Shown: positions 1 through 11,643 of the stretch, piece after piece
Layout of the letters: each line of letters begins with the position of its first letter
Numbering within the stretch: position 1 is the first letter of the stretch
From: Rikenella sp.
GTDB taxonomy: Bacteria > Bacteroidota > Bacteroidia > Bacteroidales > Rikenellaceae
DNA length: 56,621 bases
Assembly (NCBI GenBank): GCA_022511025.1
Contig: JAFLSI010000002.1
Location: 1-56,621 of the forward strand
Direction of reading: 5' to 3'
Notes under the pieces: model-generated
What the model was told of the DNA's origin: nothing
The model's input: only the letters and a program-made list of their open reading frames with translations
Database searches by the model: none
Translations under genes and position numbers: made by a program

Positions 1-60
1 GCTGGCTCCGACACTCGGCGGTGCTCGTGTCTCCACGCCGGGCGGCTGACCCAATAGCAC
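1..60. repeat. Partial copy of the dispersed intergenic repeat
   Basis: gctggctccgacactcggcggtgctcgtgtctccacgccgggcggctgaccc aligns to 47238-47300 with one gap and scattered substitutions. Confidence 0.65.
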
Positions 61-276: not shown

Positions 277-2616
277 TTATTCTTGGAGGCAACGCACCTG
301 ACGACCGTACGCACGGTAGGCGCTGTTCTGCGGGGTAACCCCACTGTAGCTGAAGTGCAAGTAGTAGGCATTGGTGCCGCTCGCCGACGACGACCAGCTG
401 TACCCGCTCTGGCCGACGTAGTACAACTGACCATTGCCGCGGTAGCGGTTGCCCGGCGCAGGGTACCACGCCTTCACGTTCCCCGAAGCCGGCTGGTAGA
501 GGCGGCCGTTCCGCGCGCTCTGCACGAAAGCCGGAGTCCCGCTCTGGGTCTGCTGCACACCGTTGATGTAGTAGAAGAACGGAGCCGCGTAAGCATCAGT
601 ACCGAAGTCATCCCACGTGCCGTTCGGGGCAATACGCCACCCCTTCGGACACGGGTCATAAGCACTCTTCGGACCTCCATCGCCCCACAAATTGTTATCC
701 TGGTAATCTGCATTATCCGTGTACCAGTCGCAAATACCAGAGGCATTCGAGATAAACCGGGTCGGATTCTTGATCGAATATTGCAACGTGTTATTACCTG
801 TTTTCGCAGTGCCTACATCGACATTTTGAACCGTACCTGCCGAAGAACTGTAGCCCAATTCCATCGTTTTATTCGACGTTCCGTCTGCCCCGTACATAAT
901 CCGCGTAAGAGCCTGTTGGTTCGTGGTGCTTCCCTCACCGCTCCACTGAGGCAGCGGGTCTTTCCGTCCCCACTGGTAGAAGAGACCGAAACTATTGGCA
1001 TCGGCCGCAGCAGGCGCTGCATACAATCCGGACAAAGCCCCGAGGTTCCGGTCCATAATCACCCGGCCGGGATTCAAAGCCATGAATTTTTCGCCGTAAG
1101 TATGCACCTGACCGCCGCTCACGGTGTAAGCGGTGTTGGCGGTACGCACACCGGTACCGGCTTCGTTCGGGTCGTAGCTCGTTACCCAAACGTGCCAGCT
1201 CCACAGAATATCGCCGCCGCTCGTATTATTATACAGAGCAACCACTGCATTCCCCTGAGTAGTTTTGGAGGATTTGACGGTCAACAGGCCGTTCACCTTA
1301 TCCAAGGTTACGTCGCCGGCATTGATCACATTCCCGTCCTGCCACAAAATCTCAGCCCGCAACGTTGCGCTCGCACCGAGTGCCGGCAGGCTCGTCCAGC
1401 TGTTGCCGTTCACTTTCCGGATATCGAACGTTACGGCCCCTGCATCGCCCGAATTGGGTTTGATGATGGCGCTGTTGTTCATGTCGAAGGTCTCAACGGT
1501 TACACGGCCGTCGGAGGTGTTGGTGCCGAGGATGTCGACAGTTACGTTGTAGACGTTGTTCCGCAGGACGTTGAAGTCGCCCATGTTGGTCGACGGGTCG
1601 CCGAGCAAAATGGCATAGGTGGCACGTTCGCTCTTGGCGGAACTCTTGTAATCGCCTTTGATTTCGATATAGGTGGCGTTGCCGTCGGTCTTGCTCAGCA
1701 CGCGGTCGCCGGCCGAGGTGATGCCGGAAACAACGGTCCGGACGTTTTCAGGTACGTACCACACGAATTTCTTATATCCGCCATCGTCGGCTGCATTGGC
1801 TACCGTTTCGGCCGGATAGTCGATGTGGCTGCCGTTCGCTTTTGCCGGGAAAACGCTCGATGTGGAGAGTTCGCCGCAGAATGCGATATTGGCGGAGACG
1901 TTCCGCATCTGTACGCCGGTTACGGTGAAGCCGCTGAACGAGTCGGCCACTTTGTACTTCAGGATCACTTTAGCCACGAGGCGTTTCATGTTCACGTTGC
2001 CGATGGCAGCGGCAGAGTTGACAGTCCCGGTGTAAACCCCGAGCATCGGAATCCCGCTGTTGCCGTCGGGTTTGTATTCGGTGCCGATGGTTTTCAGCAC
2101 GGCTGCGAGTTTCTGTTCGTTGGCAACGTTCTCCGTGTTAAAGAAACTCGGCGAGTGGGTGTTGGCCACGAAATATACTTTCCCGCCCGCTTCCGCATTG
2201 GAGGTCAGATTGACGGAAAGATTGTAGGTGGCGTCGATCCCCGAACTGCTCCCGCTGGAGGCCGGAATGTCGGTCGTGTAATAGGGGGTACCGAGCAGTG
2301 TCCCGTCGGCCTTGAACTGAATGGCCCACACGTTCTGGACTTTGGAGTCGTCGGTGGTGGTGAGTTCGGTGGTCGACTTGGTGTCTGCCGCTCCGCCGAC
2401 GCTGACTGCGAGCGAGGAGTTTTCAACTCCCGCTGCGGCTTTGGTGGCGGCGGTAAATCCGCTCCCGGGCTGACTCAAGGCTTCGGCACTCAGGGATACC
2501 GTTACGGGCAGCTCGTTGGGCCGACCGGTGGTCTCCGGATGCTGAATGTCTGATTTCGTGCACGATGCCAAACCGAAACCGACGGCGACAACTGCAAAAA
2601 TCATCAATCTTTTCAT
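277..2616 (-). CDS. Fimbrillin-family lipoprotein with C-terminal FISUMP-like domain
   Basis: ORF restart at MKRLMIFAVVAVGFGLASC (lipobox); C-terminus DPCPKGWRIAPNGTW...GYSWSSSASGTNAYYLHF...GRQVRCLQE typical of FISUMP-type ends of Bacteroidetes fimbrillin-like proteins. Confidence 0.8.
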   Translation of the reverse strand: MKRLMIFAVVAVGFGLASCTKSDIQHPETTGRPNELPVTVSLSAEALSQPGSGFTAATKAAAGVENSSLAVSVGGAADTKSTTELTTTDDSKVQNVWAIQFKADGTLLGTPYYTTDIPASSGSSSGIDATYNLSVNLTSNAEAGGKVYFVANTHSPSFFNTENVANEQKLAAVLKTIGTEYKPDGNSGIPMLGVYTGTVNSAAAIGNVNMKRLVAKVILKYKVADSFSGFTVTGVQMRNVSANIAFCGELSTSSVFPAKANGSHIDYPAETVANAADDGGYKKFVWYVPENVRTVVSGITSAGDRVLSKTDGNATYIEIKGDYKSSAKSERATYAILLGDPSTNMGDFNVLRNNVYNVTVDILGTNTSDGRVTVETFDMNNSAIIKPNSGDAGAVTFDIRKVNGNSWTSLPALGASATLRAEILWQDGNVINAGDVTLDKVNGLLTVKSSKTTQGNAVVALYNNTSGGDILWSWHVWVTSYDPNEAGTGVRTANTAYTVSGGQVHTYGEKFMALNPGRVIMDRNLGALSGLYAAPAAADANSFGLFYQWGRKDPLPQWSGEGSTTNQQALTRIMYGADGTSNKTMELGYSSSAGTVQNVDVGTAKTGNNTLQYSIKNPTRFISNASGICDWYTDNADYQDNNLWGDGGPKSAYDPCPKGWRIAPNGTWDDFGTDAYAAPFFYYINGVQQTQSGTPAFVQSARNGRLYQPASGNVKAWYPAPGNRYRGNGQLYYVGQSGYSWSSSASGTNAYYLHFSYSGVTPQNSAYRAYGRQVRCLQE

Positions 2617-2757: not shown

Positions 2758-3930
2758 TTACTGGCCTACGCTGCTGCCGCTGTCGACACTCCCCCAACCA
2801 CCGACTCCGCCGGATCCGTTCGACCCGATAAAACTGTCGTCCTGTGCCACTGACTGCCAACTCCCGACCTCCAAAACTCCATCGGTTACATCGGGGTTGG
2901 TCCCGACGGCTCCGCTCCAATCGACATTCCCCCAAGTCCCGACGAGAATCGTTCCGTTCGGACCGCCGAAACCGCCCAAATCCTGATCGACTTCGTTCCA
3001 CGAAAGAACGTCGAGCATGAGGTCGATGCTCCCGTTTTTCACGCGTGCGGTGAAACGGTAATCATTCCCTTTCTCAAAGGCCCGCGAGGGGAGTTCTGCG
3101 GTCAGCTTGTAACGGGCGTTTCCGATCTTCACATAAAACTCGGCGGGAACGGCTCCTGCACTCTTAGGCAGGAAAATCCCGGAACCGGAGGCGCCTTTCC
3201 CTTTCTGCGAAGGATCGAGGTAGGAGAAGGTCTTCAACACGCCTTTGTCGTCGGTCCCTCCGACGGTGGGGGTCAAATCGCCGCCGATGGTGTAATCGCC
3301 GGCCGGCGAAACAGCCAACGAATGGAGCACGACGCTGTCGGCAAAAAGATCGGAACTCTCTATCCCGCCTTCCACGGGCTGAACGCTAAAGGTGATTTTC
3401 GCACATTCGTGCTCAAACAGCAACCGAACACTGGTCGACGAACGGTTGATAACCTGACTGCCGACGAATGCACCCAAAAAATCGGTCCCGTGGGCTACGC
3501 CTTTCACGGTCTGGTTGTCTCCCTCGATCTTCCGGGCGGGCGAATAGGCGTAAAAATCATAGGTCCCGTTCCCCAATTCCATCCCTTTCGCTCCGGCGGT
3601 GGCGATTTCCACTCCTTCATCGTCGACGTCGCAGGGTACGAGGGTGGTCCCGTCGCTCTGCACTTTATAGGTTGCTTCTGCTTTGAAAATATCGGTCGCC
3701 AATGCGGGATCGCTCTGACCTGCACCGCCGCTCCGCTGATAAGCAACTACGCGTACGGTGCTCCCGGCTTCCAAAGCTACGTCTGCCTTGGTGGCTGCCT
3801 CCAACTGCAAACTGCCGGCCGAAAAATGAATCTCGCAGCTCTCACCTGCCACACCATCAAAAATGGTGCGACGCTGGCATCCCGCCAATACCCACACTGC
3901 CGCTGCTGCAATCACTAAACAACGTTTCAT
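2758..3930 (-). CDS. Fimbrillin-family (Mfa/FimB-like) lipoprotein
   Basis: Start MKRCLVIAAAAVWVLAGC lipobox; AATKADVALEAGSTVRVVAYQRSG and TYDFYAYSPA motifs typical of fimbrillin family; upstream of and co-directional with the 277..2616 gene. Confidence 0.75.
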   Translation of the reverse strand: MKRCLVIAAAAVWVLAGCQRRTIFDGVAGESCEIHFSAGSLQLEAATKADVALEAGSTVRVVAYQRSGGAGQSDPALATDIFKAEATYKVQSDGTTLVPCDVDDEGVEIATAGAKGMELGNGTYDFYAYSPARKIEGDNQTVKGVAHGTDFLGAFVGSQVINRSSTSVRLLFEHECAKITFSVQPVEGGIESSDLFADSVVLHSLAVSPAGDYTIGGDLTPTVGGTDDKGVLKTFSYLDPSQKGKGASGSGIFLPKSAGAVPAEFYVKIGNARYKLTAELPSRAFEKGNDYRFTARVKNGSIDLMLDVLSWNEVDQDLGGFGGPNGTILVGTWGNVDWSGAVGTNPDVTDGVLEVGSWQSVAQDDSFIGSNGSGGVGGWGSVDSGSSVGQ

Positions 3931-4000
3931 CTCCGTCTTGCTTGTTTTTACCTCCCGGAAAATACTTAAAGCCAAAGACTTAAATGCCCCGGACTTTACT

Positions 4001-4017
4001 TTTAACCGTTCGATTAA
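4001..4017. repeat. Putative serine-invertase crossover site L (TTTAACCG-TT-CGATTAA)
   Basis: Imperfect dyad around a 2-bp TT core; inverted partner at 4169-4185 has core AA. Confidence 0.75.
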
Positions 4018-4168
4018 ATACTAATAGTGCTACAAATGTATGACAAGTTCTTGAATATCCAAAAAATTTTTGCCCTTATTCTTTGCCCCTGCTTCGTCTC
4101 AAAGTACCTCGCATATGACAAAATGGCGCTCCAATCCGGTTTTTCCCTATCCTCAATAACGCTTTCCA
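4018..4168. promoter_or_regulatory. Putative invertible promoter segment (fimbrillin phase switch)
   Basis: 151 bp bounded by inverted crossover-like sites, next to an invertase gene, containing one consensus promoter. Confidence 0.75.
4033..4063 (-). promoter_or_regulatory. Bacteroidetes-type promoter directed at fimbrillin operon
   Basis: Minus strand TTTG (4063-4060), N19, TACATTTG (4040-4033) = TTTG-N19-TAnnTTTG. Confidence 0.8.
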
Positions 4169-4185
4169 TTTAACCGAACGATTAA
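4169..4185. repeat. Putative serine-invertase crossover site R (TTTAACCG-AA-CGATTAA)
   Basis: Partner of 4001-4017; core AA is the complement of TT, i.e. inverted orientation. Confidence 0.75.
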
Positions 4186-4305
4186 TTGAATGGGTCCGGC
4201 TGCAAAACAAAAGGTTCCATTTATAGCTATATTTATTATACACAGACTTTTATGCGACTATATGCGTATGTATCCTACTTACTTTATCAAATCTTTTATT
4301 CTACT

Positions 4306-4908
4306 ATGGTTATCGCTTATCTTAGGGTCAGCACGGAAAAACAACACCTCGAAAACCAACACCTCGAAATCTCAAAGTTCGCCGAGGCCCGAAACATCAA
4401 AATCGACCGCTGGGTTACCGAAATCGTCAGCGGAAAAACCAAACGCTCGGAAAGACGACTCGGAGCCCTCATCCGAAGACTCAAAAAAGGAGATACGCTG
4501 ATCGTTACGGAACTCTCCAGACTCAGCCGAACACTGCTCGATATCATGTCGATCCTCAATATCTGCATGGAAAAACAAATCACGGTCTACAGTACCAAAG
4601 ATGGCTATGCGTTCGATAACAACATCAATAGCAAGGTCCTGGCGTTCGCGTTCGGTCTGGTTGCGGAAATCGAACACAACCTGATCTCGCTCCGTACCAA
4701 AGAGGCGCTGGCTCTCAAAAAAGCCGAGGGAATCCGTATCGGCAGACCGGTCGGAAGCCGGGTCAAACTCCAAAAATTGATCGATGACAAAAAAAAGGTG
4801 ATCGATATGCTCAACCAAGGGGTGTCGATCGCGCATATCTGCCGGGAATACCAAGTCTCGCGAGGGGTGTTCTACCAATTCCGAAACCAGTGTCTGGCGG
4901 CATCCTGA
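4306..4908 (+). CDS. Serine site-specific recombinase / DNA invertase (Mpi/Hin/Pin family)
   Basis: MVIAYLRVSTEKQHLENQ (catalytic Ser), TELSRLSRTLLDIM, FAFGLVAEIEHNLIS.RTKEALA..KAEG...GRPVGS, C-terminal HTH ICREYQVSRGVFYQF. Confidence 0.95.
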   Translation: MVIAYLRVSTEKQHLENQHLEISKFAEARNIKIDRWVTEIVSGKTKRSERRLGALIRRLKKGDTLIVTELSRLSRTLLDIMSILNICMEKQITVYSTKDGYAFDNNINSKVLAFAFGLVAEIEHNLISLRTKEALALKKAEGIRIGRPVGSRVKLQKLIDDKKKVIDMLNQGVSIAHICREYQVSRGVFYQFRNQCLAAS

Positions 4909-8906: not shown

Positions 8907-9878
8907 TTATTTCGCTAAATACCGGTTCAGAAAGGCCTCGATCCGGTCGAAGGGAATGATCTCGGTCCGGTCGTACAGGTCGGTGTGGCTCGCTCCGGGA
9001 ACGATCAACAGCTCTTTGTTGTCGCCGGTCAGTTTCCGGAAGATCTCTTCGCCGAAGTAGCGCGAGTGGGCCTTTTCGCCGTGAACGACGAGCACGGCGC
9101 TGCGGATTTCGTCGCTGTAGGCCAGAATCGGCTGGTTGAGAAACGACAGCATCGAGGTGCGGTTCCAGCCGCCGTTGGAGTTGAGCGACCGGAGGTGGTA
9201 ACCGCGCGGGGTTTTGTAATAGTCGTAATAGTCTCTCACGAACTGCGGCACGTCGTCCGGAAGGGGGTCGGCCACCCCGCCGGCCAAAGCGTACGAGCCG
9301 TTCCGGGCATCTTCCGTCCGACAGGCGTTCAGCTGCCGCCGCAGTTCATACCGCGCATCGGCATCCATCGAGTCGAAATAGCCGCGGGCACTCAACCGGC
9401 TCATATCGTAGAGGGTGGAGGCGACGGTCGCCCGGATGCGGGTGTCGACGGCGGCAGCGTTGACCGCCAGCCCGCCCCAGCCGCAAATGCCGAGGATACC
9501 GATCCGGTCGGGGTCGACCCGGTCGTGGATGGAGAGAAAATCGACCGCCGCGCAGAAATCTTCCGTATTGATGTCGGGCGAGGCTACATAGCGCGGTTCG
9601 CCGCCGCTTTCGCCCGTAAACGACGGGTCGAAAGCTACGGTCAGAAAGCCCCGTTCGGCCAGCGTCTGGGCATACAGACCCGAACACTGCTCCTTAACGG
9701 CTCCGAACGGTCCGCACACGGCGACCGCCGGCAGCCTCCCCTCCGCACCCGCCGGCAGGTAGAGGTCGGCGGCCAGCGTTATGCCGTAACGGTTCGGAAA
9801 GGTTACTTTCGTGTGGTTCACTTTGTCGCTCTGCGGGAAAGTTTTGTCCCACTCGGCGGTGAGGTGCAGATTTTCCAT
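8907..9878 (-). CDS. Alpha/beta hydrolase (dienelactone-hydrolase-like)
   Basis: GILGICGWGGLAVN nucleophile elbow with Cys; VLVVHGEKAHSRYF and GASHTDLYD C-terminal motifs. Confidence 0.8.
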   Translation of the reverse strand: MENLHLTAEWDKTFPQSDKVNHTKVTFPNRYGITLAADLYLPAGAEGRLPAVAVCGPFGAVKEQCSGLYAQTLAERGFLTVAFDPSFTGESGGEPRYVASPDINTEDFCAAVDFLSIHDRVDPDRIGILGICGWGGLAVNAAAVDTRIRATVASTLYDMSRLSARGYFDSMDADARYELRRQLNACRTEDARNGSYALAGGVADPLPDDVPQFVRDYYDYYKTPRGYHLRSLNSNGGWNRTSMLSFLNQPILAYSDEIRSAVLVVHGEKAHSRYFGEEIFRKLTGDNKELLIVPGASHTDLYDRTEIIPFDRIEAFLNRYLAK

Positions 9879-10059: not shown

Positions 10060-10170
10060 CAAATCCCCTTTTGTCCTCTTTCGGCAGTCCTGTTTTGACA
10101 ACTGCCGCGTACAAAGATAGGATGAATTTCCGAATCTGCCAAATGTTTTGCAACGGGGCAGCCCTCCCCG

Positions 10171-11643
10171 TCAATCCTGCCTGCTGTAGTTCGGAGCCTC
10201 GCGCGTAATGGTTACGTCGTGGGGATGGCTCTCCTGCATCCCCGAGGCGGTGATGCGCACGAACTTGGCCCCTTTCAAGGCCTCGATATCCTTGGCTCCG
10301 CAATAGCCCATCCCGGCGCGCAGCCCGCCGACGATCTGGTAAATGACCTCGGCCAACCGCCCTTTGTAAGGCACCCGCGCTGCAATCCCCTCCGGCACCA
10401 ACTTTTTGACATCGTCTTCCGCATCCTGGAAATAGCGGTCTTTGGATCCTTTCTGCATCGCCTCCAACGACCCCATTCCGCGATAGGTTTTGAACTTCCG
10501 TCCGTTGAAGATCACCGTTTCGCCCGGCGACTCTTCGACTCCGGCGAACATCGACCCGGCCATCACGCAGTCCGCCCCCGCCGCAATCGCCTTGACGACA
10601 TCGCCCGTATAGCGGATCCCGCCGTCCGCAATCACCGGCACGCCGGTCCCTTTGAGCGCCGAAGCCACGTCGTAGACCGCATTGAGCTGCGGCACCCCGA
10701 CCCCTGCGATGATCCGGGTGGTGCAGATCGACCCCGGCCCGATCCCCACCTTCACTCCGTCGGCACCCGCTTCGACCAGCATCTTCGCCGCCGCCGCGGT
10801 CGCCACGTTCCCCACCACCACATCCAACTCCGGATAACGTGCCTTGACCTCCCGGAGTTTTTCGACCACTCCCCGCGAATGGCCGTGCGCCGTGTCGATC
10901 ACGATCGCATCGGCTCCCGCCTCATACAGCGCCGCTACCCGCTCCATCGTGTCGGGGGTAACCCCCACTCCGGCCGCCACCCGGAGCCGCCCTTTCGAGT
11001 CTTTCGCCGCATTCGGGTTGTCCTTGACCTTCGTAATGTCCTTGTAGGTCAGCAGACCGACCAATTTCCCCGCAGCATCCACCACCGGCAGCTTTTCGAT
11101 CTTGTTGTCGAGCAGTATCTCCGCCGCTTCGCCCAAATCCGAGTTGTGGGTCGTAACCAAGTTGTCTTTGGTCATCACTTCGCTGATCCGTTTGGCCGCA
11201 TCGGTCTGGAAACGCAGGTCGCGGTTGGTAACGATCCCGATCAACCGGCGGTCGTCGTCGATCACGGGGATTCCGCCGATCTTGTTTTCGTGCATGAGCG
11301 CCTTGGCTTCGCCCACCGTACCGTCCGCCCCGATCGTGATCGGATCGTAAATCATTCCGTTCTCCGCCCGCTTCACCTTCCGCACCTGACGGGCCTGCTC
11401 CTCGATGGACATGTTCTTGTGAATCACGCCGATCCCGCCCTCTCTCGCGATGGCGATCGCCAAGTCCGCTTCGGTTACGGTATCCATCGCGGCCGAAACG
11501 ATCGGGGTGTTGATCGGCACGCGGCGCGAGAAACGCGAAGCCACGCACACCTCGCGCGGCAATACTTCGGAATAGGCCGGGACGAGCAAAACGTCATCGA
11601 ACGTCAGCCCTTCGGATACGATTTTTTCATCTATGAACGACAT
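10171..11643 (-). CDS. guaB: IMP dehydrogenase
   Basis: [20 protein letters not shown] pair, [34 protein letters not shown]. Confidence 0.97.

Follow-up and report, generated by a model that had tools for sequence, protein, structure and literature searches.

A putative invertible promoter before a type V pilin-like operon of Rikenella, adjacent to an Mpi-like serine invertase gene

In a genome of a gut Rikenella sp. (Bacteroidales), a fimbrillin-like gene and the gene of a serine DNA invertase are separated by a short region in which two similar dyads enclose a promoter, which raises the question whether this region is a phase switch of the pilin operon. The window, i.e. the whole stretch of 56,621 nucleotides that was analyzed, was examined for this purpose together with the remainder of the 1.87-Mb assembly and with related genomes. 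As is set out below, sequence comparisons indicate that the segment is very probably an invertible promoter that switches the pilin operon, flipped most likely by the neighboring Mpi-like invertase (Table 1).

The products of both operon genes resemble type V pilins (FimA/Mfa family). The fimbrillin-like protein gives a profile match to 4h40, a putative cell adhesion protein (1.5e-6), and its fold model also matches 4h40, albeit at low confidence (pLDDT 55). The tip protein has profile matches to PG49/Mfa4 and, both below cut-off, to a FimD tip adhesin model (1.4e-10) and to TIGR02145 (0.0079); its structure model is likewise of low confidence (pLDDT 52) and was left unused. LAGC and LASC boxes in the pilin sequences can be read as lipoprotein marks. 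Directly downstream of the tip gene, a long imperfect palindrome at 198-267 is a possible terminator between the pilin operon and the next region. In Rikenella microfusus (L060), an inverted second copy of the tip C-terminal end with the same stop region is found ~0.8 kb downstream (9102-9294 and 10070-10268), and this is a possible alternative C-terminus.

Table 1. Features of the switch region and the pilin operon (window coordinates)
Feature	Position	Strand	Basis
Putative DGR variable region (VR), 3' end of tip gene	277..460	-	Template-like copies on C199; mismatches enriched at template adenines
Tip-adhesin-like pilin: FimA-type N-terminal region, DUF4906, C-terminal FISUMP-like domain	277..2616	-	P_gingi_FimA 2.2e-6; DUF4906 1.4e-11
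Fimbrillin-like lipoprotein, type V pilin family	2758..3930	-	Mfa_like_2 2.9e-22; 4h40 profile match
Left crossover site, TTAACCG-TT-CGATTAA, core TT	4002..4017	+	Sequence; degenerate-site count in assembly
Putative invertible segment between sites, ON orientation in window	4018..4169	.	28/28 pairwise comparisons among 8 loci
Bacteroidetes-type promoter TTTG-N19-TACATTTG, aimed at pilin operon	4033..4063	-	Pattern match; kept in 8/8 loci
Right crossover site, TTAACCG-AA-CGATTAA, core AA, opposite core polarity	4170..4185	+	Sequence; degenerate-site count
Fixed leader, right site to invertase; OFF-state promoter would read into it	4186..4305	+	Alignment
Mpi-like serine DNA invertase, 200 aa	4306..4908	+	Resolvase 6.9e-33; NF009949 267.7 bits; gamma-delta resolvase alignment

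The apparently flippable segment that bears the promoter comprises 184 bases. Each crossover site is a 16-bp dyad with a 2-bp core, and positions 4001-4017 read TTTAACCGTTCGATTAA and positions 4169-4185 TTTAACCGAACGATTAA, with an interval of 151 bp. The initial annotation, made from the letters of the window, had placed the two sites there and had called them inverted by virtue of their complementary cores. The coordinates are borne out by the sequence and so is the core polarity, with the refinement that the arms of the window sites are direct repeats, and that the inverted polarity comes from the 2-bp core alone (TT versus AA). In five of the seven other loci that are described below (L057-L061), the sites are exact inverted repeats of one another, which makes the polarity argument stronger than the window alone permits. 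A minus-strand promoter at 4063-4033 before a fimbrillin start at 3930 had also been claimed, and pattern search and open reading frame agree with it; the Mfa_like_2 match to the protein that starts with this ATG is in line with the further claim that the switch governs a fimbrillin operon. The promoter is located 15 bp inwards of the left site and ~103 bp upstream of the fimbrillin ATG, and matches of the TTTG-N19-TACATTTG type number four in the window versus 0.09 expected. Its spacer is N19 in the window and N20 in the other seven loci. Every segment contains one consensus promoter, which faces the downstream gene in one state only.

The sites are specific. A degenerate form, TTAANCGWWCGNTTAA, has exactly four matches in the assembly, one pair in the window and one pair on contig C200, each with a start-to-start spacing of 168 bp, and a reversed-pattern control gave 0 matches in the same 1.87 Mb. 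Among 268 Rikenellaceae genomes, the paired-site pattern occurs in six, all of them Rikenella; the remaining 262 yielded no paired sites, and the control pattern had 0 matches. An Rfam search of 3900-4320 gave no match. Related motifs occur singly. The R. microfusus genome (G001:C2) contains ~20 scattered lone TTAAYCG-TA-CGRTTAA palindromes with a self-complementary core, so that a motif of similar sequence serves another purpose in that genome. Lone TTAAACGAACGGTTAA sites at G006:C26:24103 and G007:C58:361 are located within a few hundred bases of a second, weakly resolvase-like gene, and in G007 a promoter-like TATATTTG directly precedes the lone site. Another contig of G007 (C164, L063, 1-120) begins within a further copy of the switch, with a leader that resembles that of the invertase and with no invertase behind it.

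Evidence for inversion comes from a comparison of eight loci in six Rikenella genomes, each oriented by its fimbrillin gene, with states read from consensus assemblies, mostly MAGs. Two loci are ON, that of the window (genome G000) and G002:C292, and six are OFF, namely G000:C200, G002:C95 and the loci of G001 (R. microfusus DSM 15922), G003, G006 and G007. Interiors of segments in the same state align unflipped in 16 of 16 pairs (scores as-is 31-151), and interiors in opposite states align only when flipped, in 12 of 12 pairs (flipped 15-44, as-is 8-15, shuffle maxima 12-17). Inversion hence fits all 28 pairwise comparisons; the weakest opposite-state pair, the window and G002:C95, is marginal by itself (flipped 15 versus a shuffle maximum of 14). 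The flanks are collinear among the loci, which restricts the change to the segment between the sites. It had been proposed at the outset that the promoter of this fimbrillin operon is invertible and that the window is in the ON orientation; the promoter indeed faces the fimbrillin gene, and the presence of both orientations across strains and between paralogues supports the predicted invertibility.

The gene beside the segment had been annotated as a serine invertase gene starting at 4306, and this assignment holds. The protein contains a resolvase domain (PF00239, 6.9e-33) and a C-terminal HTH_7 match that is below its cut-off (1.1e-4), and its YLRVST motif, in the catalytic serine region, aligns with YARVST of gamma-delta resolvase. 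By far the best NCBIfam model is the "master DNA invertase Mpi" (NF009949, 6e-80), but with 267.7 bits the protein falls 4 bits short of the curated cut-off of 272. Four Rikenella orthologues score 263.6-269.4 bits, 3-8 bits short, and because of the score under the cut-off we name the protein Mpi-like and not Mpi. A close invertase (87-90% identity) is found in six of the eight genomes of the genus, the same six that bear the paired sites, and G004 and G005, the two members without it, have no paired sites. As sites and close invertase are confined to one small clade, their co-occurrence amounts to few independent events. In G007 the gene (L061, 1482-2071) is split over two frames by a frameshift or an assembly error. 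Beside more distant Mpi-like loci (58-69%), including those of Alistipes, no convincing switch was seen in a search for inverted repeats with promoters, which required 10 exact bases and thus misses imperfect sites. In the 91%-complete window assembly, only one other resolvase-family gene was found, which is weak and distinct (33 bits); another invertase could be hidden in the missing ~9% of the genome.

It could be argued that the segment was inverted in the past and is now fixed in each lineage, a relic and not a working switch. The evidence indeed consists of consensus assemblies only, the OFF state is common to four mpi-linked loci, and the split copy of G007 may be locked unless it reflects an assembly error. 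However, the sites are almost perfect although the interiors diverge, both genomes that have two complete switches show one of them ON and the other OFF, and in all but one of the six genomes the invertase gene is intact, with 87-90% conservation, so that we consider a relic unlikely. Serine invertases such as Hin and Gin need dyads with a 2-bp core of defined polarity, and the 16-bp dyads with their polar core suit an enzyme of this kind; moreover, sites and close invertase are present in the same genomes, and no other strong resolvase-family match is found in the window genome. These points speak against a real inversion that is carried out by another recombinase, either of the tyrosine type or an unassembled invertase, which we also regard as unlikely, even if the assembly is incomplete and tyrosine recombinases of Bacteroides fragilis are also master invertases (PMC4747536). 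The notion that the dyads are operators of a regulator, for which the lone core-TA palindromes of R. microfusus might be cited, and that the orientation differences are ordinary rearrangements or assembly errors, is highly improbable, as in all loci, one of them from a near-complete genome, the breakpoints of the orientation change coincide exactly with the paired sites, and the spacing of the sites is constant at 168-169 bp.

According to the preferred reading, the Mpi-like protein, as the most likely enzyme, would recombine the two dyads at their 2-bp cores and thereby flip the segment. In the orientation of the window the promoter would drive the pilin operon (ON); after flipping, the pilus operon would be silent and the promoter would be placed upstream of the invertase gene (OFF), and adhesion would be expected to vary with the state if flipping continues today. 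In the OFF orientation the promoter would face the invertase gene and end about 152 bp before its ATG, a geometry that is identical in all six invertase-linked loci. A separate Bacteroidetes consensus promoter for the invertase that is better than shuffles was not found in the fixed leader, and no terminator-like site is reported in 4186..4305. The OFF-facing promoter may make a feedback loop with the invertase. A stretch of the leader near 4209-4250 is conserved in six loci and might serve as a control element of another type.

The second switch of the window genome, on C200, has an equal arrangement of sites and promoter in front of a paralogous fimbrillin (67% identical) and a tip gene (69%), with the promoter facing away (OFF). 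No invertase is present on this contig. No Mpi-type invertase other than that of the window was found, so that switching of C200 would probably occur in trans, and it is probably the invertase of the window that would act on it. The neighbors of the C200 operon are an HU-like gene and a MeaB-like GTPase (named from their translations). The operon is syntenic with G002:C95 of another species, where the HU-like gene is 90% identical, the switch is OFF as well, and no invertase match was found within the 8 kb that were read. The end of another contig of the window genome (C57, L103, 4078-4279) holds a second C-terminus of the target type together with a stop codon; it may belong to the tip gene of C200, the contig of which ends within this gene.

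A further source of variation is suggested by the end of the tip gene. The last ~60 residues of the tip protein recur in four tandem copies on contig C199, between an Avd-like gene (bAvd 1.1e-12; NF033474 Avd 1.8e-13, but below cut-off) and a reverse transcriptase (PF00078, 6.4e-17). The latter contains IGNLTSQ and YVDD, which we take to be motifs of the reverse transcriptases of diversity-generating retroelements (DGRs), and it is found in the same six genomes of the genus as the switch, in G003 as a short fragment only. In G006 a single contig contains, in this order, invertase, switch, fimbrillin, tip, Avd, five template-like copies and reverse transcriptase. The order of the genes is the same in R. 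microfusus, for which no template-like copies of the G006 type were found. The ending of template-like copies is CAAGCATTTA or a close variant of it, that of target copies CAAGAATAA. If all template- or target-like copies of the tip-adhesin C-terminus are counted as cassettes, the arrays comprise 4 in the window genome (L101; G000:C199, 1226-4941), 5 in G006 (L107/L059; C50), 15 in G007 (L131; C17, 1449-7875) and at least 11 in G002 (L130; C10), where cassettes with another 3' end extend past the reverse transcriptase. A two-template DGR is on record (PMC6642488), and accounts of template arrays this long were not found in a limited literature search.

The mismatches between template (TR) and target (VR) are enriched at template adenines. 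In G007, the first copy differs from the partial tip 3' end at 5 of 23 template adenines and at 0 of 89 other positions, and this adenine-only pattern is the classic DGR signature. In G006 the mismatches affect 15 of 42 adenines versus 14 of 153 other positions, and in the window genome, with a weaker bias, 15 of 45 versus 15 of 123. DGRs typically have 75% of their mismatches at adenines (PMC8144416), and the window genome falls below this value. The window operon appears to be linked to the C199 retroelement by synteny only, because the 32-bp overlap of the contig ends is a repeat; a join by this overlap was rejected, as the 32-mer has 11 copies. Window positions 1-32 are this sequence, the copies of which are mostly near contig ends, and it is presumably an interspersed repeat at which the assembly broke off.

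One locus might combine three layers of variation: the switch, an OFF-driven invertase that would make the switch asymmetric and self-resetting, and a DGR that would rewrite the tip from 4-15 template or archive cassettes. This wider reading is tentative, and we would rather doubt than assert it at present. If it is true, OFF cells would make the invertase and ON cells none.

Short dyads, in which the polarity of a 2-bp core makes the sites inverted, are shared with the DNA invertases of the Hin/Gin type, but unlike there, the Rikenella invertase gene lies outside the segment. The phase-variable fimbria-like locus of B. fragilis is reportedly driven by a tyrosine recombinase, and no retroelement is said to be described there. 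As in that locus, DNA inversion would control a pilin-like surface locus in Rikenella (PMC12632263). With Mpi of B. fragilis, the system has in common a serine recombinase, promoter segments, probably including distant ones, and surface structures as presumed targets (PMC4747536, PMC12632263). However, Mpi acts on capsules and 13 targets, whereas pilin operons and two presumed targets are found here, and the gene of the Rikenella invertase, which scores just under the Mpi cut-off, is faced by the OFF-state promoter of its own switch. Like the invertons before fimbrillin genes of human gut isolates, the segment has a promoter oriented to drive a gene of the fimbrillin family (PMC11892184). In that 2025 survey, which names tyrosine-type or generic site-specific integrases as invertase families, invertases adjoining invertons are generally not drivable by the inverton promoter, and this makes the drivable position of the Rikenella invertase unusual. 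Avd, reverse transcriptase, template repeat and the tip-adhesin C-terminus as target correspond to the Bacteroides DGRs that diversify type V tip pilins (cited in PMC12632263), but in Rikenella there are arrays of 4-15 template-like cassettes, and the locus is, in relatives, common with a serine-invertase switch.

Invertible promoters, Mpi-type invertases and phase-variable or DGR-diversified pilins are thus each already described (PMC4747536, PMC11892184, PMC12632263). New in this system are the pair of switches in opposite states, probably operated in trans, an invertase gene that is faced by the OFF-state promoter of its own switch, and, in relatives, the locus common with a multi-template DGR. 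Beyond the initial annotation go the second (OFF) operon in the same genome, the OFF promoter that faces the invertase, and the DGR that is linked in relatives. Mpi-type phase switching would be extended to pili in Rikenella, with a natural system of two operons in opposite states within the same genome. With its OFF-state promoter directed at the invertase gene, the locus offers a testable case of orientation-controlled invertase expression. Since the locus of the relatives seems to carry targeted hypermutation of the tip adhesin, on/off switching and diversification of the binding site could be studied together, also in the cultured type strain R. microfusus DSM 15922.
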